From a virus: 20,856 nucleotides of DNA. Each line of letters opens with the position of its first letter. Position 1 is the first letter of the stretch. The stretch lies in the IMG/VR virus record IMGVR_UViG_3300027752_001137, positions 1-20,856 of that record. One strand, written 5' to 3'. The position numbers and the translations under genes were made by a program. This document shows, one piece after another, positions 2,495-15,623 of this stretch. Below the pieces are notes generated by a model. That model was given only the letters and a program-made list of their open reading frames with translations, was not told where the DNA came from and made no database searches.

Positions 2495-3526
2495 ATGAGT
2501 AACTTTGTAAAGATAGAAAACGGTATATACCGTAACCAACCGATTGAAGGGGTATTCCCTTTAGTTAAACCAACTCAGCAAGGAAAGAAAGGATACTTTG
2601 TGACTATAGATGCATCAGCATTATTAGGATCAGAGCGTAATTCAATCCGTGTTGTAGTACCAACACTAGCAAGTGTTGAACCTTTAACAGATGTTGAAGG
2701 CGAGAAACTTGTTGAAACTGCTCCAGAGTCTAAGGCTAAGCCTAAAGAAACTGACGAGCAGGCAATGACTAGAATTAGAGAGCGTTTTGCTATTCTAGAC
2801 CAAATGACTGATGCTGTAGCAAACGGTGTTGTTAGAGGTCTTATAGTAAGTGGTCCTCCAGGAGTTGGTAAGTCATTCGGTGTTGAAAGTATAATTGACA
2901 TGTACGATGCAGAAACTAAACTTGCTGGTCGTCCACCTAGAACTGAAGTAGTTAAAGGGTCAATGACACCAATTGGATTGTACCAGACACTGTACAACAA
3001 TTCAGCTAAAGGCGACATCCTTGTGTTTGATGACTGTGACAGTATCTTGTTTGATGAAGTATGTTTGAACATGTTGAAGGCAGTACTTGACTCAGGTAAG
3101 AAGCGTACAATTAGTTGGAAGTCAGAAAGTGTTGCATTACGAAGAGAAGGCATTCCGGATAGGTTTGAGTTCTCAGGTGGTGTAATTTTTATTACTAACG
3201 TGAACTTTGAAAACGTTCGTAGTAAGAAGATACAAGACCACTTAGCGGCACTTATGTCAAGATGTCATTACATGGACTTAGAGATGAATAGTGTACATGA
3301 TCGTTTTTTAAGAATCAATCAGATTGTTGGAGACGGTATGCTAAACGACTATAAGTTTGGTGATGAAGGCAATGCAGAAGTAGTAAACTTTATGCATGAG
3401 AAACAAGCAAGGCTTAGGGAGATTTCGTTGAGAATGGTTCTTAAGATTGCTGACTTGAAACAAATGAGCCCGGACACCTGGAAAGGATTGGCCGAGAGCA
3501 CTTGTATGAAGCGTATGGGATTATAA
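2495..3526 (+). CDS. AAA+ family ATPase, phage type, unknown target
   Basis: A 343-residue P-loop ATPase. Residues 1-90 form a separate N-terminal domain of mixed strands followed by a charged Lys/Glu linker. The ATPase core shows Walker A GPPGVGKS at 120-127, Walker B ILVFDDCD at 175-182 and a sensor-like VIFITNVNF strand near 230. The start is placed at the ATG at 2495, because GGGAGG lies just ahead at 2482-2487 and promoter P2 would start transcription near 2461; upstream in-frame TTG and ATG codons have no such site. It is not obviously gp44, since the clamp-loader pattern is not clear. It may be a remodelling ATPase acting on replication or host proteins. It has its own promoter and a terminator right behind it, so it is a one-gene unit. 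Confidence 0.85.
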   Translation: MSNFVKIENGIYRNQPIEGVFPLVKPTQQGKKGYFVTIDASALLGSERNSIRVVVPTLASVEPLTDVEGEKLVETAPESKAKPKETDEQAMTRIRERFAILDQMTDAVANGVVRGLIVSGPPGVGKSFGVESIIDMYDAETKLAGRPPRTEVVKGSMTPIGLYQTLYNNSAKGDILVFDDCDSILFDEVCLNMLKAVLDSGKKRTISWKSESVALRREGIPDRFEFSGGVIFITNVNFENVRSKKIQDHLAALMSRCHYMDLEMNSVHDRFLRINQIVGDGMLNDYKFGDEGNAEVVNFMHEKQARLREISLRMVLKIADLKQMSPDTWKGLAESTCMKRMGL

Positions 3527-3565
3527 AATACTCCCACAGTAATAGTAGTCTATTCGCTTCAGATG

Positions 3566-3600
3566 GTACACTCCTCAGTAATGGGGAGTGTGCTTTTTTT
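3566..3600 (+). terminator. Intrinsic (rho-independent) terminator after the AAA+ ATPase
   Basis: Bases 3566-3576 pair with 3583-3593 to form an 11-bp stem that includes two G-T pairs. The loop has six bases (3577-3582), and a run of seven T follows at 3594-3600. This is the strongest terminator in the window and sits 40 bases after the ATPase stop and 22 bases before the receptor gene. Confidence 0.9.
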
Positions 3601-3621: not shown

Positions 3622-5223
3622 ATGAAGAACGTAGTAAATAACTTAGTCGCAGTGATAGCATTATCAACAATGATATCGACTAATGTAAATGCTGATGATT
3701 CGAATTACATTGAAGAGATTCTTGTTGTAGGTGCCGTCACCACAGAAGATATCACAGATGTTACTTTAGATTTTACAATCAGCGAAACCTTGATGCCAGC
3801 GGTATCTTATATCCCTGGAGGCTATGGCGGCTTTGCAGGATACAGTGAACGCGGAACACAGACGATACACACTACAGTGTATAAGAATGGTGTGCCAGCA
3901 AATGATGCAGGGAACGGTTGGTATGACTTTTCACATGATGTTGTAACAGGAACAGAAAGTGTTAAAGTAGTAAACGGACCAAACAGTGTATTGTATGGCT
4001 CAGGTAGTTTAGGTGGAACAGTATTTATAACAGACCAAATGAAAGACATGTCTGTGTTAAGAATAGGAGAACAGCACACACTAGCAAGTGTATCGCTATT
4101 TGAAAGTCTTAGTATATCTCACTTTAATGTGAACAACGGAAGTGTTAAAAATGATAACACAGAAGATGATTGGTATAAAAATAACACAGTTAAATTTGTA
4201 AAGAGTTTTGATGATCTAACCGTAGCCGCTGTTCGCACAGACTACGAATATGATTATGACAACTGTTATACTCCAGCGTTCTCAACATCAAACGATTGTC
4301 AACAGGACGGACAGAAAACAGATCTTAGTATTCGTAACAATAACTTTACGTTAGGTTACAGCAGAACTGACTCAGAGTTTTTTACTGAAGGTGCAAGCAC
4401 CTACACTAGTAAAGCCGAGCGTTACTATGCAGATGCTAAAAAGGAAATGTCACTAAGTGATGCAGTAACATATATCACAGGTGTAACACTTCAGCAGGAT
4501 AAGTATTCCGGAGATAGTAGAAATGACTTTAGTACTTACTCTACTCTTACTGTTAATGAAAAACTGCAAGGTGGACTTAGAGTTTCACAAGATGCAATAG
4601 TCGGACGTTTAGGCTATACAACAGACAATTACTTTGTTAGTATAGGTAACACCTACCGTAACCCTACAATGTATCAAGAGAAAGGTGACGCATGGGTTCA
4701 AGAGAATCCTAATCTAGATCCAGAAAAGGGCATGGGCATCGAAGCTGGCTACAAAGCATTTAGTGTATTCAAGTTCAAGTTTGACGAGAACATTGACTAC
4801 AGTTATGCAAGCTCGCAGTATGTAAACACAGGTGAGTATGATACACAAGGTATTAGATTCATGGACATGTTTGCTGTTCCTTATGGTTCATTCAATGTAA
4901 TGGTTGGATATACAGATAGCGATCAGCCGAGAGTACCGAAGTGGAAAACTAGGCTTTCATATTTTGCAAGTGTAGGTAACTACTCTGGTGAACTTGTTTA
5001 TACAGCACAGTTCGACCGCGGTATGGATATTGCTCCATATGGACAAGAAGCCACAGAGTTAGTTGACCTAGAGTCAGTTGATTTAGTGTTTGGTCTTAAA
5101 GAATTTGACAACGGGTTGAAACTTGACCTAACTGTACAGAATCTATTCGACAAAGAAGTAGAAGTTATTTCCGGCTATGATGCTGGTGGACGAAATATCT
5201 TCTTGACATTAACCTACAAGTAG
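3622..5223 (+). CDS. Phage-encoded TonB-dependent outer-membrane receptor
   Basis: TonB-dependent receptors are gated 22-strand barrels that import scarce ligands such as cobalamin, iron chelates or sugars. The start at 3622 follows AGGAG (3612-3616) and gives a signal peptide (residues 1-24, cleavage after VNA). A TonB-box-like EEILVVGA lies at 31-38. A plug domain follows, with KNGVPAND (88-95) and ESVKVVNGPNSVLYGSGSLGG (112-132). The barrel has alternating strands, a two-cysteine acidic loop (NCYTPAFSTSNDC), and an NPNLDPEKGMGIEAGYK segment typical of the family. It ends in VQNLFDKEVEV...GRNIFLTLTYK. At 533 residues it is short for the family (BtuB about 614), and its last residue is Lys rather than the usual Phe. 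The style recalls BtuB, but the ligand cannot be read. It follows a terminator, has no clear promoter, and its 3' end holds the uvsW promoter. Phage genes flank it on both sides. Confidence 0.92.
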   Translation: MKNVVNNLVAVIALSTMISTNVNADDSNYIEEILVVGAVTTEDITDVTLDFTISETLMPAVSYIPGGYGGFAGYSERGTQTIHTTVYKNGVPANDAGNGWYDFSHDVVTGTESVKVVNGPNSVLYGSGSLGGTVFITDQMKDMSVLRIGEQHTLASVSLFESLSISHFNVNNGSVKNDNTEDDWYKNNTVKFVKSFDDLTVAAVRTDYEYDYDNCYTPAFSTSNDCQQDGQKTDLSIRNNNFTLGYSRTDSEFFTEGASTYTSKAERYYADAKKEMSLSDAVTYITGVTLQQDKYSGDSRNDFSTYSTLTVNEKLQGGLRVSQDAIVGRLGYTTDNYFVSIGNTYRNPTMYQEKGDAWVQENPNLDPEKGMGIEAGYKAFSVFKFKFDENIDYSYASSQYVNTGEYDTQGIRFMDMFAVPYGSFNVMVGYTDSDQPRVPKWKTRLSYFASVGNYSGELVYTAQFDRGMDIAPYGQEATELVDLESVDLVFGLKEFDNGLKLDLTVQNLFDKEVEVISGYDAGGRNIFLTLTYK

Positions 5224-5231
5224 ACTATAAT
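5203..5231 (+). promoter_or_regulatory. Perfect sigma-70 promoter P3 for uvsW (leaderless start)
   Basis: The -35 TTGACA is at 5203-5208 inside the receptor gene and the -10 TATAAT at 5226-5231, with a 17-base spacer. Only five bases separate the -10 from the uvsW ATG at 5237, so the expected transcription start falls on or beside the A of the start codon. There is no ribosome site upstream of that ATG, consistent with a leaderless message. Confidence 0.88.
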
Positions 5232-5236
5232 AGCGT

Positions 5237-6694
5237 ATGCCTAAAGTAACTTTAGAAATCAGAGATGAAGTAAACGTTAAGTTCGTAGGACTTGACGTAA
5301 AGACTCGCAGAAAGATATCAGAAGCAGCCAAGTATTTTTTACCCTATGCATTTCATATGCCGGCCTACAAGTTAGGCCGTTGGGATGGTTGTGTAAGATT
5401 CTGTGATGTCGGCGGAAGAACGTATCTAAATTTGCTTGATCGTTTATTGCCACTAGTAACCGAAGCTGGTTATGAAGTAGTAGTAGACGATCGCAGGCAA
5501 CCTATCCAATTATCATTTGATAATGTAACTGAAACTGATTACGAACATACAGCATGGCCTAAGAACCATCCAGCAGAAGGCATGCCGGTTATACTTCGAG
5601 ATTATCAGGTAACAGTTATTAATAAGTTCTTACAGAATCCACAATGCTTACAACAAGTAGCAACAGGAGCAGGTAAGACACTTATCACAGCCGTACTAAG
5701 TCACAAGTGTGAGAAGTATGGACGCACAATCGTAATCGTACCAAACAAAGACTTGGTAGTGCAGACAGAAAGAGATTACAAGAATTTAGGTTTAGATGTC
5801 GGTGTGCTATTTGGCGATAGAAAAGAATACACAAAGACACATACCATTTGTACTTGGCAAAGTTTATCCATGCTATCTAAGAAGTCAAAGAAAGGTGAAG
5901 CACCTATTGACATTGAAGAGTTCTTAGATGGTGTAGTATGCGTAATGGTAGACGAAGTACACAAAGCAAAAGCAGACGTACTTAGGGACCTTCTAAGTAG
6001 CGTGTTCTCTAACGTACCCGTACGTTGGGGACTAACAGGAACTATACCCAAAGACGAACACGAAGCAGTAGCGTGTACATGCTGTCTAGGACCTGTTGTA
6101 AGCGAACTAAGCAGTAAAGAATTACAAGATATGGGCGTACTAGCAGATTTAGATATTGATATATTTCAATTACAAGACGGCACACTAGGCTTCCAAGGAT
6201 ATGCACAAGAGCTCAAGTGGCTAGTTACCGATCCACAACGACTTGATCATATAAGTTCTATAATTAACGGACTTGCTGCAAACGGTAACACACTAGTATT
6301 AATTGACCGGATTGCAACAGGAGAAATGTTATCAGAAAGAAATCCTGATTGGGCATTTGTTAGTGGCAAGATGAAGACCACAGATAGGCAAGACGAGTAT
6401 GCAGAAGTTTCAGAAATGGATAACAAGGTAATTGTTGCTACATATGGTGTAGCATCGGTAGGTATTAACATACCCAGAATTTTTAACTTAGTTCTTTTAG
6501 AGCCAGGTAAGAGTTTTGTAAGGGTAATACAAAGTATCGGCAGAGGAATTCGTAAAGCAGAAGATAAAGATTATCTGAAAGTGATTGACTTAACGAGTAA
6601 TCTAAAGTATAGTAAGAGACACTTAACAAAAAGAAAGCAGTTTTATGCAGAACAAAAATTTAGGTACAATGTAACCAAGGTAGAATACAAATGA
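5237..6694 (+). CDS. uvsW: UvsW-type superfamily 2 DNA helicase
   Basis: UvsW unwinds branched DNA and R-loops and moves T4 from origin-dependent to recombination-dependent replication. The 485-residue product (T4 UvsW: about 503) has an N-terminal accessory domain (about 1-115). The two RecA-like helicase lobes follow: a Q-like ILRDYQ segment at 119-124, motif I ATGAGKT at 142-148, motif II DEVH at 239-242, motif III as GLTGT near 266, and motif VI as QSIGRGIRK near 434. The ATG at 5237 is the only good start, and it lies five bases after promoter P3 with no ribosome site. In T4, uvsW is a late gene; here it has a host-type promoter, implying earlier expression. The stop overlaps the next start (ATGA). 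Confidence 0.92.
   Translation: MPKVTLEIRDEVNVKFVGLDVKTRRKISEAAKYFLPYAFHMPAYKLGRWDGCVRFCDVGGRTYLNLLDRLLPLVTEAGYEVVVDDRRQPIQLSFDNVTETDYEHTAWPKNHPAEGMPVILRDYQVTVINKFLQNPQCLQQVATGAGKTLITAVLSHKCEKYGRTIVIVPNKDLVVQTERDYKNLGLDVGVLFGDRKEYTKTHTICTWQSLSMLSKKSKKGEAPIDIEEFLDGVVCVMVDEVHKAKADVLRDLLSSVFSNVPVRWGLTGTIPKDEHEAVACTCCLGPVVSELSSKELQDMGVLADLDIDIFQLQDGTLGFQGYAQELKWLVTDPQRLDHISSIINGLAANGNTLVLIDRIATGEMLSERNPDWAFVSGKMKTTDRQDEYAEVSEMDNKVIVATYGVASVGINIPRIFNLVLLEPGKSFVRVIQSIGRGIRKAEDKDYLKVIDLTSNLKYSKRHLTKRKQFYAEQKFRYNVTKVEYK
6585..6613 (+). promoter_or_regulatory. Candidate sigma-70 promoter inside the uvsW 3' end
   Basis: TTGACT at 6585-6590, a 17-base spacer and TATAGT at 6608-6613 each differ from consensus by one base. 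It would start transcription about 70 bases before the gene at 6691. It lies in coding sequence, so chance is possible. Confidence 0.4.
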
Positions 6695-8056: not shown

Positions 8057-9163
8057 ATGTCTTATCAATTTACTAGCGAAAGCGTTAGCGAAGGACACCC
8101 AGATAAAATTTCTGATTTAATTTCAGATACTATAGCTAATGCAATTATTGACGGTAATATAAATCATAGAGCGGCAGTAGAGACTTTAGTAACTACTAAT
8201 AGTGTTATTGTTGCAGGCGAATATAAAAGAGATATTCCAATTGATGACGACACCGTTGAATCCATAGTTAGACAAGTAGTTAAAAATATTGGCTACGAGC
8301 AAGATGGGTTCCATTGGGCTAACCTAACAGTAGTAAACAAACTCCATGGTCAAAGTGCAGATATTGCTTTGGGCACAGATGAGTTTGGTGCAGGCGACCA
8401 AGGACTTATGTTTGGTTATGCTTGTGACGAAACACCAGATTTAATGCCTAGTGCAATTTATTACAGTCACAAGATTCTAAAAAGGCTAGCGGCAGAAAGA
8501 CGTGGACCCGATGGAGAATGGATCGGGCCAGACAGTAAATCACAAGTAACAATGCAATACGATAGTATTGGTCAGCCAGTTGGTATTAAAACTATTGTAT
8601 GTAGTACTCAACACAGCGATGACGTAAGCACACAAATGGTGCGTGATAGAGTTGAGCAAATTATTACAGATGAATTAAGTGACCAAAATCTTATAGATAC
8701 AGAGTTTTTAATTAATCCTACAGGCAGATTTGTTATTGGTGGACCAGATGGAGACACAGGACTTACAGGGCGTAAGATTATTGTAGACACATACGGTGGC
8801 TATGCCCCACATGGCGGCGGAGCATTTAGTGGTAAAGACTGCACTAAGGTAGATAGAAGTGCGGCTTATATGGCACGTTACTTAGCAAAGAATATCGTAG
8901 GCTCAGGGAAAGCAAGCAACTGTACAGTACAACTAAGCTATGCTATTGGTGTAGTTGAACCTACTAGTGTTTATGTTTATGCTGACGGCAAAGTTAGAGA
9001 AGACTTAGTTGCAGAAATTATAAGTCTTGTTGATTTAACACCAAAGGGTATTATTGATAAGTTTGGATTGTTTAATATGGACTTAACAAAAACTACCAAC
9101 TACGGACACTTTGGCAAACCAGATCTACCATGGGAGCAATTAGATCTTTATGGACCTAACTAA
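8057..9163 (+). CDS. metK: S-adenosylmethionine synthetase (methionine adenosyltransferase)
   Basis: MetK joins methionine and ATP to make SAM, the methyl donor for nucleic-acid methylation. The 368-residue product (E. coli MetK: 384) has all three family blocks: TSESVSEGHPDKISD at residues 6-20 with the catalytic His and Asp, GAGDQGLMFGYA near 115, and GGPDGDTGLTGRKIIVDTYGG followed by HGGGAFSGKD and KVDRSAAYMARYLAKN in the C-terminal half. It therefore appears complete and active. AGGAGA at 8043-8048 supports the start. A TAAATAC string near 8020 may be a weak late-type promoter, but no clear promoter is seen. Its last 14 bases overlap apt, showing a coupled unit with apt and the nucleosidase. 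The signature is unambiguous. Confidence 0.96.
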   Translation: MSYQFTSESVSEGHPDKISDLISDTIANAIIDGNINHRAAVETLVTTNSVIVAGEYKRDIPIDDDTVESIVRQVVKNIGYEQDGFHWANLTVVNKLHGQSADIALGTDEFGAGDQGLMFGYACDETPDLMPSAIYYSHKILKRLAAERRGPDGEWIGPDSKSQVTMQYDSIGQPVGIKTIVCSTQHSDDVSTQMVRDRVEQIITDELSDQNLIDTEFLINPTGRFVIGGPDGDTGLTGRKIIVDTYGGYAPHGGGAFSGKDCTKVDRSAAYMARYLAKNIVGSGKASNCTVQLSYAIGVVEPTSVYVYADGKVREDLVAEIISLVDLTPKGIIDKFGLFNMDLTKTTNYGHFGKPDLPWEQLDLYGPN

Positions 9164-9680
9164 AATACTCCGTACTGTACCTGACTTCCCAATTGACGGA
9201 GTCATGTTTAAAGATATATCAAGCATACTTGAAGAACCTAAAGCGTTTCAATACACTGTAGATAAGATAGTCGCATATTGCAGGAGTGTTAAGGCAACAC
9301 AAATTGTTGCACCAGATGCACGTGGATTTTTATGGGGTGCTCCAGTTGCACTAGCACTAGGTATTCCATTACACATTGTTCGTAAGCCAGGTAAATTACC
9401 AGGCAAAGTAAAGACGTATTCGTATATATTAGAGTACGGTAGCGAAACACTTGAAATGTTAGACAGTGTTAAGTTTGAATACACTGATAGAATTTGCATC
9501 ATAGATGACGTGAGTGCTACAGGTGGAACTGCTAATGCTATGGTAGAGTTGATTAAACAAGCAGGCGGGTTTGATATAAATTATGCCTGCGTAATAGACT
9601 TGACTTTCCTGCAAGGAACTGCTAAACTAACAGACTATTGCGGCATAGACACATTTAGTGTCTTGGAAGTAAACGAATGA
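9150..9680 (+). CDS. apt: Adenine phosphoribosyltransferase
   Basis: APRT converts adenine and PRPP to AMP, salvaging free adenine. The 176-residue product matches the family in length and order: RTVPDFPIDGVMFKDIS at 8-24, DARGFLWGAPVA near 56-67, RKPGKLPG at 78-85, YILEYG at 92-97 and the PRPP-binding loop IDDVSATGG at 118-126. All are in the usual places, so the enzyme looks intact. It overlaps metK by 14 bases and mtnN by four bases, with no room for a separate promoter, so the three are made together. The partner nucleosidase downstream releases adenine, which is this enzyme's substrate. Confidence 0.93.
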   Translation: MDLTKILRTVPDFPIDGVMFKDISSILEEPKAFQYTVDKIVAYCRSVKATQIVAPDARGFLWGAPVALALGIPLHIVRKPGKLPGKVKTYSYILEYGSETLEMLDSVKFEYTDRICIIDDVSATGGTANAMVELIKQAGGFDINYACVIDLTFLQGTAKLTDYCGIDTFSVLEVNE

Positions 9681-10207
9681 AAGATTTAATATTAATTGCA
9701 CTTGAAAGTGAAGCACCTACTATGGCAAAGTGGGATAATGTATTCTTTACAGGTGTTGGAAAAATTAATGCGGCACTAACTGCTGCAAGACTTATTGAAA
9801 AACATAATCCACAAACTGTTTGGAACTTTGGTACAGCAGGCGGCATTAAGTTAGACAAGGGTTTGTTTGAGATGGTAAACTTTGTTGAACGAGATAAAGG
9901 CAAGTGCCCAGAAGCAATTGAATTATTTTTACCAAAAGATCCTATTACAATTTCGTGTGGAGTTGGCTATACATGTAGCACAGGCGATAACTTTGTTACA
10001 GATCCTAACTTAGAACACCCAGCTCATGTTGTAGATATGGAAGCATTTGCAATTGCTAAAGCATGTACTAACAGGAAGGTTAACTTTAAATGCTTTAAGT
10101 ATGTAAGTGACAGTGCAGATGAGTCAGCGGATACTACATGGCTAGAGAACGTTGCAAAGGGCGAAGAACATTACATTAATGTCTACAAGGAACACACAGA
10201 TGGCTAA
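9677..10207 (+). CDS. mtnN: MTA/SAH nucleosidase-like enzyme (short form)
   Basis: A purine-nucleoside phosphorylase superfamily member, best read as 5'-methylthioadenosine/S-adenosylhomocysteine nucleosidase, which splits these SAM by-products into adenine and a thio-sugar. The 176-residue protein is shorter than bacterial MTAN (about 230). Family marks remain: an early ALESEA with catalytic-type Glu (10-12), GVGKINAA at 26-33, NFGTAGG at 50-56, STGDNFV at 101-107, VVDMEAFAIAKAC at 118-130 with the substrate-binding Glu122, and SDSAD at 144-148 supplying the Asp. The missing sequence lies between the GTAGG and STGD blocks. A related nucleosidase with other purine specificity is possible, but the metK and apt neighbours favour MTA/SAH. 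The start overlaps apt as ATGA. Confidence 0.82.
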   Translation: MKDLILIALESEAPTMAKWDNVFFTGVGKINAALTAARLIEKHNPQTVWNFGTAGGIKLDKGLFEMVNFVERDKGKCPEAIELFLPKDPITISCGVGYTCSTGDNFVTDPNLEHPAHVVDMEAFAIAKACTNRKVNFKCFKYVSDSADESADTTWLENVAKGEEHYINVYKEHTDG

Positions 10208-12135: not shown

Positions 12136-13818
12136 ATGCACATGAATTATTTAACATCATTACTTTGTACACTATTTTTAATAGGTTGTGGAGGCGGAGG
12201 AGGCTCTTCCGCTGAAGTCATTGTACCTATAGAATCACCACCCCCAGCAACTACACCACCGCCTCCAGCAACGCCGACGTTTGATATAGAGTACAATAGT
12301 GCACCAGATGCAACTATCTATGATGCTGTAAGTAAACTAGAAATACCTACTTGCACACTGTCTAGAATACAACATACCATGATAGTAGATCTTAATAACG
12401 ACAATCACAAAGATATATTAATGTTTGTGATGTGTGGACATTTAGATCATCCTAATCAAGGTATTAATGTAGTACATGATGATCCAACACCTAACACGAT
12501 GTTAGCATTGATTAGCGATGGTAGAGGGTCATATGAAGTAAACAACATAGACACATTTGGCAGTGACCACGTGCAACTCGGTGGAGAGAAAGGCGGAGTC
12601 GCAGGCTTCTTTACAATGCTAGAAGATACAACAAGTGGTATTGGATTACCACATATTACATATATGGTTTCACGTGATGATCACCAACGCAAACGAAGTG
12701 AAGATTGGACTAATCATTTCTCTCAGCAAGGTGTTTTTACAGCAGACTATAATAATACATACAACTTAGTAGACATAGGTGAGCCACTATGGGCACAAGG
12801 TGTTGCGGCATTGCCTAACATGAACTACGAATGGGACTTGCTATTTGGCTATTGGGATAATGATTATACAACTGAAAATATGCCACTAGCATATCGTAAC
12901 AGTGGACAAGATTGGTTTGATGTAAGTGACGAGTACAACAACGATACTGATAAACACAAAATGTCTCAACATGCATATCTTTTAACTTTTGATATTAACG
13001 ACCATAGGACGTTTGGTGAAGTTAAATCTGTAACATCAACTCATGCTATTGGTTCAGTTGGTCATGGATTTTCAATATATGACATAACACAAGGACAAGT
13101 AACAGAAACTCTTGTATACGATACTTGCGATGAATTAGGTTGCATTGAATGGGGTGACCCAGAAGCAGATACATGGTGTGGACGTAAAGAGATTGTAGAA
13201 ATAGATGGCGTTCATTACTTTGGCGGACTTGCATGGGACCATTTTGAACTATGGTGGCCAACACCTGACAGTGATCCATTACTACTTGCATTTGCAGCTA
13301 TGAATCGTCTACCGGACGGTGAGCAGTATGATGCAAACAAAGAGTATGACTGCAACACACAATTCGAGGGCGGAACAGTTAGAGTGTTATTTGAGTTACA
13401 AGGTAATAGTCTTGTAATGCTAGATAATCCATTCCCTGAAAACTATATTAACGGTGGTGGTGTGCATAAGCAAACTATAGATTTAAATGGTGACGGATAT
13501 ATGGATTACTGGTCATCAGGTGGTTCAGCACAAGACGGAGAACCTCAAATTTATATCAATGACAAAGAAGGTAACTTAGTATATCATCAACGTGGACAAT
13601 TGCCAACCTTGCCACAGCAAGATTTTTGCAACGAGGATGGGTGTATTGTTGCTACAGAAGAAAGTTTCCTAGGTGACTTGAATAGTGATGGTATAGTAGA
13701 TTTAATTCAATACCACGCCGGAAGCTATATACCTAACTTACCAGAACATGTACAAGGTGGAGACTTATCGGTGTTTGAAAACAAGTCAGGACAAATAAGC
13801 ATTTGGTACGGAGAATAA
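12136..13818 (+). CDS. Surface lipoprotein with FG-GAP/VCBS-like DxNxD repeats
   Basis: A 560-residue predicted lipoprotein. The N-terminus is a short hydrophobic signal with a lipobox LIGC (Cys18), so the mature protein would be lipid-anchored. The Cys is followed by Gly and Ser, not Asp, so an outer-membrane location is expected by the usual sorting rule. A flexible Pro/Thr linker (about 34-47) follows. The large C-terminal domain has three DxNxDxxxD calcium-type loops at 85-93 (DLNNDNHKD), 449-457 (DLNGDGYMD) and 514-522 (DLNSDGIVD). These recall FG-GAP/VCBS repeats, often beta-propellers for adhesion or ligand binding. Many Cys suggest disulfides, fitting export. The ligand and function are unknown. 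Its own promoter P4 and a ribosome site show it is expressed. Surface lipoproteins such as T5 Llp block phage receptors, so superinfection exclusion is one option; nutrient capture is another. Confidence 0.82.
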   Translation: MHMNYLTSLLCTLFLIGCGGGGGSSAEVIVPIESPPPATTPPPPATPTFDIEYNSAPDATIYDAVSKLEIPTCTLSRIQHTMIVDLNNDNHKDILMFVMCGHLDHPNQGINVVHDDPTPNTMLALISDGRGSYEVNNIDTFGSDHVQLGGEKGGVAGFFTMLEDTTSGIGLPHITYMVSRDDHQRKRSEDWTNHFSQQGVFTADYNNTYNLVDIGEPLWAQGVAALPNMNYEWDLLFGYWDNDYTTENMPLAYRNSGQDWFDVSDEYNNDTDKHKMSQHAYLLTFDINDHRTFGEVKSVTSTHAIGSVGHGFSIYDITQGQVTETLVYDTCDELGCIEWGDPEADTWCGRKEIVEIDGVHYFGGLAWDHFELWWPTPDSDPLLLAFAAMNRLPDGEQYDANKEYDCNTQFEGGTVRVLFELQGNSLVMLDNPFPENYINGGGVHKQTIDLNGDGYMDYWSSGGSAQDGEPQIYINDKEGNLVYHQRGQLPTLPQQDFCNEDGCIVATEESFLGDLNSDGIVDLIQYHAGSYIPNLPEHVQGGDLSVFENKSGQISIWYGE

Positions 13819-14242: not shown

Positions 14243-14484
14243 ATAAGAAAGAAGAAATGTTAGTAATCACAATGGAAGAATGTGGAGAGCTAATACAAGC
14301 ATGTAGTAAGATGTTACGGTTTGGCGAAGAACAAGACTACACACAACTGCAAGAAGAAATAGGCGATGTTATGTGTATGATCGAAATTTTACGCGATGGT
14401 GGCTTCGTAAATGATAAACAAATAGCAGATAGAATAAAAGTTAAAAAAGAAAAACTAATGAAGTGGAGTTTACTGTACAAATGA
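14239..14484 (+). CDS. MazG-like nucleotide pyrophosphohydrolase
   Basis: An 81-residue all-alpha NTP-pyrophosphatase of the MazG/HisE type, which hydrolyses NTPs or dNTPs to monophosphates and pyrophosphate. The metal-binding pattern is clear: EECGE at 13-17 and EEIGD at 39-43, separated by the usual helix and turn. Such enzymes in phages are thought to adjust the nucleotide pool, or ppGpp levels, during infection; the actual substrate is unknown. The start ATG at 14239 overlaps the previous stop as ATGA; an upstream in-frame TTG is less likely. It again overlaps the next gene, glyA, as ATGA. Position between thymidylate-related genes fits nucleotide housekeeping. Confidence 0.85.
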   Translation: MNKKEEMLVITMEECGELIQACSKMLRFGEEQDYTQLQEEIGDVMCMIEILRDGGFVNDKQIADRIKVKKEKLMKWSLLYK

Positions 14485-15623
14485 ACATTGATTTTAAAAT
14501 AAAAGACATTCTCGATCGAGAATCAAAAAGACAAGATAATACCATCGAGCTTATAGCAAGTGAAAACTATGCCAGCAAAGCAGTAATGGAATTAAGCGGA
14601 AGTATATTTACAAATAAGTATGCTGAAGGTTATCCAGGCAAACGTTATTATAACGGTTGCAATCACATGGATGAAATTGAAACCATGGCAATCGAAGAAG
14701 TTACTAAACTGTTTGGTTGCAACTTTGCTAATGTACAACCGCATTGTGGTGCTAATGCCAATACAGCAGTATTCCAGGCATTTTTAAACCCAGGTGATAC
14801 TATACTTGGAATGGATTTAGCAAGTGGCGGACATTTAAGTCACGGAAGCCCTCCAAATATATCAGGCAAGATTTATGATGCACACTCTTATGGTGTTGAA
14901 GAGGATGGCTTAATTAACTATGATGAAGTTTTGATGTTAGCAGAACGTCATAAACCTAAAATGATCATTGCAGGTGCAAGTGCATATCCAAGACAAATCG
15001 ACTGGAAAGCGTTTAGAGAAATTGCTGACTCAGTCGGTGCATTGTTGTTGGTAGATATGGCACACTACTCAGGTCTTGTAGCAGGTAAGTGTTACGATAG
15101 TCCTATTCAGTATGCTGATGTTGTAACAAGTACAACACACAAGACCTTACGCGGTCCTAGGGGCGGTATTATACTGTGGAACAATGCGGAATACAGCAGA
15201 CGTATTAACAGTGGTATATTCCCTGGTACACAAGGTGGTCCGTTAATGAATCAGATTGCAGCAAAAGCTCAATGTTTTGTAGAAGCTAATACAAAAGAGT
15301 TTGAGGACTATGCTCACAATGTTTTACTTAATGCTAGAGCATTTGCAAATCAACTTACAGCAAACGGATTTAATTGCTTGACAGGAGGCACAGATTCGCA
15401 TATAATATTACTTGATTTAACAAATAGAGGAATTAGCGGAAAAGATGCAGCTGACCAATTAGAGGAGTCAGGCATTACTGTTAATAAAAATGGTATACCA
15501 GATGATCCTAGAAGTTTTACAGAAACAAGTGGTATTAGATTAGGTACTGCGGCTGAAACAACTAAAGGACATGACGCTAACTGGTTTATACAACTAGCAG
15601 ATAAGATTGCAGATATTATATAA
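14481..15623 (+). CDS. glyA: Serine hydroxymethyltransferase
   Basis: PLP enzyme that turns serine and tetrahydrofolate into glycine and methylene-THF, the one-carbon donor for ThyX. The 380-residue product (bacterial GlyA about 415) shows ELIASENY at 23-30, TNKYAEGYPGKRYYNGC at 44-60, QPHCGANAN at 86-94, and the PLP site STTHKTLRGPRGG with Lys221. GIFPGTQGGP and a C-terminal SGIRLGTAA segment follow. All core motifs remain, so it appears functional, with a somewhat trimmed length. The start is ATG 14481, overlapping the previous stop (ATGA); an upstream in-frame GTG is less likely. Its 3' third carries a perfect promoter (P5). The TAATG overlap links it to the next gene. Confidence 0.95.
   Translation: MNIDFKIKDILDRESKRQDNTIELIASENYASKAVMELSGSIFTNKYAEGYPGKRYYNGCNHMDEIETMAIEEVTKLFGCNFANVQPHCGANANTAVFQAFLNPGDTILGMDLASGGHLSHGSPPNISGKIYDAHSYGVEEDGLINYDEVLMLAERHKPKMIIAGASAYPRQIDWKAFREIADSVGALLLVDMAHYSGLVAGKCYDSPIQYADVVTSTTHKTLRGPRGGIILWNNAEYSRRINSGIFPGTQGGPLMNQIAAKAQCFVEANTKEFEDYAHNVLLNARAFANQLTANGFNCLTGGTDSHIILLDLTNRGISGKDAADQLEESGITVNKNGIPDDPRSFTETSGIRLGTAAETTKGHDANWFIQLADKIADII
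15378..15406 (+). promoter_or_regulatory. Perfect sigma-70 promoter P5 inside glyA (TTGACA-17-TATAAT)
   Basis: TTGACA at 15378-15383 and TATAAT at 15401-15406, 17 bases apart, match consensus fully although they lie inside glyA codons. The transcript would begin near 15413, about 210 bases before the gene at 15623, so it can serve that gene independently of P4. No ORF of note starts right behind it, so a small RNA or a long leader is also possible. Confidence 0.75.

Follow-up and report, generated by a model that had tools for sequence, protein, structure and literature searches.

Why would a phage carry, in the midst of its replication genes, a complete gene for a TonB-dependent outer-membrane receptor (TBDR), and what would such a receptor bring into the infected cell? 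Viruses bring metabolic enzymes, while gated outer-membrane nutrient receptors are far less known from them. The question is raised here by a 20.9 kb virus contig, the whole of which (20,856 nucleotides, referred to below as the window) was analysed; the features that we discuss are collected in Table 1.

Receptor architecture and locus

By sequence and by model the receptor is complete, and all of the parts that the first-pass annotation had read from the letters are present: a predicted signal peptide stands in front of a TonB box in which, across 42 phage proteins, E31 is invariant and I30, E32 and V35 are each conserved in at least 90%; the Plug match to PF07715 at residues 39–133 (E 6e-12) scores 46.4 bits, the cut-off being 23.9; and the barrel has a C-terminus of LTLTYK. 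The AlphaFold2 model made with 42 homologues (pLDDT 85.2, pTM 0.84) contains the plug and about 22 barrel strands, and superposes on BtuB in the BtuB:TonB structure over 496 residues at 2.4 A (Z 37.6), which bears out the receptor fold proposed from the sequence. The impression of a short barrel holds relative to BtuB (533 vs. approximately 614 residues) and does not extend to the locus as such, where relatives reach 676 residues. We regard it as highly probable that this is a functional TBDR belonging to the phage.

Table 1. Positions of the receptor gene, its parts and the other features discussed, numbered from the first letter of the window.
Feature	Position	Strand	Basis or remark
AAA+ ATPase (phrog_1250)	2495..3526	+	upstream neighbour of the TBDR gene
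Intrinsic-terminator-like hairpin with T tract	3565..3600	+	between the AAA and TBDR genes
TBDR gene, 533 aa	3622..5223	+	cobalamin (BtuB) type
Predicted signal peptide, residues 1-24 (VNA/DD)	3622..3693	+	sequence reading; low-confidence N-terminal helix in model
TonB box IEEILVVGA, residues 30-38	3709..3735	+	conserved across 42 phage proteins
Plug (hatch) domain, residues 39-139	3736..4038	+	PF07715; model
Beta-barrel, about 22 strands, residues 140-533	4039..5220	+	AlphaFold2 model, structural alignment
Loop motif NDNTEDDWYKN, residues 177-187	4150..4182	+	E181, D183 align with BtuB D193, D195
Loop YEYDYDNCYTPAFSTSNDCQQDG, residues 208-230	4243..4311	+	D213 aligns with BtuB D230, Y212 with Y229
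Consensus sigma-70 promoter of uvsW, TTGACA-17-TATAAT	5203..5231	+	12/12 positions
UvsW helicase	5237..6694	+	downstream neighbour of the TBDR gene
S-adenosylmethionine synthetase (MetK)	8057..9163	+
Adenine phosphoribosyltransferase (APRT)	9150..9680	+
MTA/SAH-nucleosidase-like (MTAN-like) protein	9677..10207	+	PNP_UDP_1; below NCBIfam cut-offs
Serine hydroxymethyltransferase (SHMT)	14463..15623	+

The gene is flanked by phage genes for UvsX, UvsY, the AAA ATPase (phrog_1250), UvsW, a primase and a DnaB-like replicative helicase, and this synteny is conserved, in agreement with the earlier reading of a phage gene as opposed to contamination. The AAA neighbour was also considered as a CobS, and no CobS model matched it. 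The 3' end of the TBDR gene does carry the promoter of uvsW, as had been noticed: the TTGACA element starts within codons 528–529 (Leu528-Thr529), which supply the −35. Among 67 distinct sequences, those with the leucine codon TTG at this place have a TATAAT-like −10 in 45 cases and lack it in 2, compared to 6 with and 14 without for other codons (Fisher 4e-8, relatedness of the sequences not being corrected for), and TTG makes up only 12% of the leucine codons elsewhere in the TBDR genes. Since the TTG codon goes with the −10, the coding end of the TBDR has been shaped as a promoter for uvsW, and this overlap may help to lock the TBDR-uvsW pair together. As for signals in front of the TBDR, one hairpin such as that in Table 1 is expected by chance in a stretch of this size, yet it recurs in near relatives. 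Of the 22 lineage B TBDRs, 21 are preceded by a near-consensus sigma-70 promoter of their own that matches 11 or 12 of 12 positions, a sign of early expression for that lineage only; no sigma-70 promoter for the TBDR itself was found in the lineage of the window (13 sequences).

Distribution and evolution within the phage group

The arrangement of the window is repeated in a non-identical contig (L001) that differs from it by few substitutions, and a UvsW scan of IMG/VR returned 80 relatives, 72 of which have the TBDR, or its cut 3' end, directly upstream of uvsW. The TBDR is missing from L017, L026 and L027, with 103 bp between AAA and uvsW; both AAA and TBDR are missing at uvsW in L040–L042; a different protein takes the TBDR position in L015; and L025 is counted among the TBDR-missing contigs from the only 171 bp visible upstream of its uvsW. 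Within the tree of UvsW, contigs lacking the TBDR are nested among those that carry it and therefore look like losses. An independent scan with a TBDR profile yields 257 viral contigs that encode a relative, and in all of the best 80 of these 257 the TBDR lies in the uvsW locus, with uvsW right behind it in 77 and the contig ending before uvsW in 3. The profile matches include clade 2, whose UvsW is 56–57% identical to that of the window. TBDR-bearing records include lengths of 217–340 kb, and exactly one Plug domain is found in 20 of 21 long records. That the TBDR locus stands in a record of 339,794 bp (G395), which is on the whole collinear with one of 250 kb, identifies the carriers as jumbo phages. 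The closest cultured UvsW proteins among the matches listed are those of PA5oct-like phages, followed by Sinorhizobium phage Phosso and Atu_ph07. A tblastn search of the TBDR against phage isolates matched no true phage record, only misfiled pieces of Salmonella chromosome; AFYI01000005.1 and AGRM01000004.1 are such Salmonella chromosome contigs (btuB, 16S rRNA) filed in the phage collection.

Pairwise dN/dS values of 0.02–0.2 indicate purifying selection on the TBDR, a host-type gene maintained in a phage genome as is characteristic of auxiliary metabolic genes. The synonymous distances of the TBDR and of uvsW disagree, with a dS of 2.5 for the TBDR and 0.23 for uvsW between the window and L004 and the reverse relation in L071/L073 and L048/L067, so that TBDR alleles have evidently been swapped by recombination at one fixed locus. 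In a quick TBDR tree, which is subject to long-branch artefacts, the phage proteins form one clade (SH-aLRT 100, branch length 1.74) and clade 2 falls within the window-type lineage, which suggests that TBDRs have been exchanged between phage clades as well. The TBDR is a near-core, purifying-selected gene of uncultured, mostly marine jumbo phages related to PA5oct and Atu_ph07. The earlier description of the gene as unusual for a phage is thus correct for phages at large, among which it is rare, and has to be given up within this jumbo phage group; its conservation across the whole group and the exchange of its alleles at a fixed locus were not visible to the first-pass annotation. Since the same locus is found in scores of contigs, it is not an assembly chimera, and the conserved synteny across many contigs rules out contamination as well.

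Kinship with BtuB and the candidate ligand

The best NCBIfam match of the TBDR is the BtuB equivalog TIGR01779 (55.9 bits, E 2.7e-15, over most of the length), whose equivalog cut-off of 599.7 bits is not reached; the protein is BtuB-like by anatomy, yet by this cut-off it falls outside the equivalog family. A phmmer search of the PDB with the single TBDR gave no match and a profile was needed: with 42 sequences in the profile, BtuB is the only family at E up to 0.01 (E about 1e-18), and hhalign of the phage TBDR to a BtuB alignment gives E 7.5e-42 over 499 columns. The 15 best structural matches of the model are all cobalamin transporters (Z 37.6 to 32.5), the ranking running from E. coli BtuB (Z 33–38) through the Bacteroides B12 transporters (about 33) to PirA and ChuA (about 31). 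On the bacterial side, 19 loci were taken from among the best-scoring TBDR kin, one being the known Salmonella BtuB, and searched for RNA families. A cobalamin riboswitch lies directly upstream and on the same strand in 17 of them, several of which are close relatives of one another, and in 0 of the 14 generic TBDR loci that the same scan had yielded. With riboswitch-controlled cobalamin TBDRs as its nearest cellular kin, the phage protein is of BtuB type in the broad sense. A still closer bacterial relative may exist beyond what was covered here, as bacterial contigs were scanned by means of short peptide patterns and whole genomes were searched in a single class (369 of them).

It is also important to consider the residues on the ligand side. 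BtuB positions 193, 195 and 230, which we take to belong to the calcium cage of BtuB, read E, D and D in all 44 phage proteins, and Y212, at the position of BtuB Y229, is conserved in 43 of them; BtuB position 179 has no clear phage counterpart, and 241 is off register with D225 nearby. A two-residue motif of the calcium site occurs in 19 of 21 rows of riboswitch-linked TBDRs (four of them repeats), in 1 of 14 controls and in 4 of 40 others. In BtuB, calcium raises the affinity for cobalamin about 1000-fold, and Y229/D230 contact cobalamin (PMC7360065). Unlike the usual variable surface loops, loops 2 and 3 of the phage proteins are conserved at 0.71–0.78, compared to 0.77 for the plug. Within the phage family C215 and C226 are invariant, and a disulfide between them is possible. 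Several observations nevertheless count against import of B12: the identity to BtuB is only approximately 20%, the long phage branch leaves the exact bacterial sister unsure, the RNA scan of the window itself gave no cobalamin riboswitch, Salmonella BtuB has no cysteine at the positions of C215 and C226 and no counterpart of the phage loop there, and TBDR ligands cannot be safely read from fold or kinship.

In two of the longest records there is a gene for a protein that combines a B12-binding with a radical-SAM domain, and such a gene shares a record with the TBDR in G001, G002, G395 and G011, which represent two phage clades. The B12-binding match in G001 is weak (19.1 bits vs. a cut-off of 32.1), G002 and G395 hold an identical radical-SAM copy and may be one virus, and in the TBDR-bearing clade 2 record G011 the radical-SAM part of the B12-binding gene was read from a CxxxCxxC motif. 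The position of the gene is conserved among G395, G001 and G396. G396 and the TBDR contig G013, from one sample, correspond to complementary, different parts of G395, a relation which suggests that phages of the window type carry the B12-binding radical-SAM gene too; no radical-SAM gene was found in the window, and its own lineage (A) of clade 1 is linked to one only through these complementary contigs. No B12-binding domain was found in the complete PA5oct and Atu_ph07 genomes. A need of B12 for a class II ribonucleotide reductase is ruled out because the reductase genes, seen in 9 long phage records, are class I NrdA and NrdB. In the long phage records neither TonB nor a BtuF-like binding protein was found, which means no more than reliance on host parts for these steps; this absence and the class I reductase, like the lack of a radical-SAM gene in the window and of a TBDR promoter in its lineage, also count against B12 import. 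As to the surroundings of the radical-SAM genes, that of G011 (L335:835-4221) appears to adjoin an amidinotransferase-like gene and a DegT-like aminotransferase fragment, a second radical-SAM-like C-terminus lying 3 kb away, and that of G002 (L289:58-3206) stands near a putative NAD-synthetase-like gene, with which it may form a small biosynthetic cluster.

The fold, the riboswitch-linked bacterial kin, the calcium-site residues and the B12-binding radical-SAM genes in the same phages together favor cobalamin import, one of the roles that the first-pass annotation had floated beside iron import, replacement of a receptor lost by the host and occupation of TbB against other phages, and we lean toward a corrinoid as the ligand. 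The best explanation, which we put forward with modest confidence, is a BtuB-type importer of cobalamin or a related corrinoid that serves the infected cell via host TonB. Expressed in the infected cell, the TBDR would be secreted after infection and reach the outer membrane by way of the host's Sec and BAM systems, where its TonB box would engage the host's own TonB-ExbBD and cobalamin or a related corrinoid would be taken up. The corrinoid would then serve the cobalamin-binding radical-SAM enzymes of the phage and possibly host methionine synthase. Radical-SAM enzymes consume SAM, MTAN enzymes also cleave 5'-deoxyadenosine, and the phage may also steer that metabolism with its MetK, MTAN, APRT and SHMT. 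A wider and more tentative proposal, which we find plausible though somewhat less likely than not, is a viral B12 import-and-use module, long maintained beside uvsW, in which the BtuB-type TBDR imports, the radical-SAM enzymes use, and MetK, MTAN and APRT supply SAM and clear by-products.

TBDRs often change ligand within one fold, PirA, ChuA, ZnuD and PqqU lie only a few Z units behind BtuB, and the loops differ from those of BtuB and hold two invariant cysteines, all of which would suit a TonB-dependent importer that takes up some other scarce substance, be it an iron chelate, haem, zinc, copper or a different cofactor, and has its BtuB-like body from ancestry alone; if iron, it would supply the di-iron class I ribonucleotide reductase, whose NrdA/NrdB genes are carried by the 9 long records. 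We consider this rather unlikely, given that cobalamin transporters make up all 15 of the best structural matches and are alone in matching by sequence in the PDB, that a cobalamin riboswitch accompanies most of the nearest bacterial kin and that the calcium-site residues are conserved. Import would be beside the point if the protein were a surface decoy or exclusion factor that competes for TonB, displaces the host TBDRs on which rival phages depend, or acts as a spread receptor (e.g., on vesicles). TBDRs, BtuB included, are common phage receptors, and the allele exchange at the locus (window/L004, with L071/L073 reversed) would be expected under shifting selection on specificity. Exclusion is also described for FhuA and T5 (PMC9586334). 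A decoy would not need the TonB box, plug and two ligand-side loops that are among the best conserved parts, and dN/dS stays low, so that we judge this reading improbable.

The architecture is that of a bacterial gene and bacterial TBDRs are abundant in seawater, as a recent neutral passenger of host origin or an assembly chimera would have it; such an origin is scarcely credible for a gene at the same locus in scores of contigs from many samples, with proteins on one long-branch clade, purifying selection and a uvsW promoter built into the TBDR codons. A virion or cell-binding component, the role suggested by gene order for the TBDR-like protein of Skadi-1, whose gene stands between those for tail tube and capsid (PMC10504331), is very improbable for the window, where a signal peptide is present, the gene lies among replication genes, structural genes are not adjacent and lineage B has a host-type promoter.

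If corrinoid import is the true role, TBDR-carrying phages may supply the infected cell with a vitamin that the phages need. B12 limits much marine microbial growth, and a B12-importing phage TBDR would therefore connect viral infection with vitamin cycling; with a B12-type TBDR throughout the group and B12-binding enzymes alongside, the effect of phages on host vitamin uptake becomes testable. A phage TBDR would also place new receptors on the surface of infected cells, which would bear on superinfection and on colicin-like bacterial toxins.

Comparison with known systems

The long record G001 holds further genes that we note in their own right. At 88.7–93.1 kb (L237:8694-13079) lies a curli-like cluster with CsgG (4e-48), CsgF (3e-11), a weak curlin repeat and a FecR-domain protein; Pelagimyophages and Melnitz are reported to have csgGF only, without csgA/B (PMC9004378). 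The same record encodes a plastocyanin/azurin-family copper protein with a signal peptide (L233:3741-4178, PF00127, 4e-18), a CHASE2 sensor fused to an adenylate/guanylate cyclase domain (L237:3346-5415) and an 811 aa FG-GAP lipoprotein.

Phage TBDRs have been noted before, in Mar_Mega_1 and Skadi-1, and this family has not. For the TBDR (SusC) of the uncultured marine megaphage Mar_Mega_1, reported as one annotation only, which LR745206 shares, a boost to uptake in the course of infection was proposed (PMC9723777); the SusC entry A0A8D9FQQ5 of BFVD, which is probably this protein or one like it, belongs to another TBDR family (805 aa, 11% identity to the TBDR of the window). In the cultured marine pelagiphage Skadi-1 the reported TBDR gene sits in the structural region of a small phage, whereas that of the window sits among replication genes. 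PA5oct (Arenbergviridae) and Atu_ph07 are among the isolates with the closest UvsW (50–55% identity) and, unlike the window, have no TBDR annotated or matched at uvsW.

Among cellular systems, Bacteroides thetaiotaomicron BtuB1-3 with the surface lipoprotein BtuG (8BLW, 8BMX, 8P98) share the common fold at Z 32.5–33. The window also encodes, at 12136-13818, a 560 aa FG-GAP-repeat lipoprotein with the lipobox LIGC, which is found in only 11 contigs, all close relatives, at 73–96% identity; a lipoprotein so rich in repeats, encoded near a TBDR of B12 type, brings BtuG to mind, but its own model, at a pLDDT of only 33, lends no support to that identity. Relative to E. coli BtuB (PDB 1NQH, 2GSK), the phage TBDR is approximately 20% identical, 80 aa shorter, phage-encoded, without a riboswitch and distinguished by the invariant cysteine pair in loop 3, and it shares with BtuB the plug and 22-strand barrel, the TonB box, the acidic residues of the calcium site, Y229/D230 and the GY..(G)GR end of loop 11.
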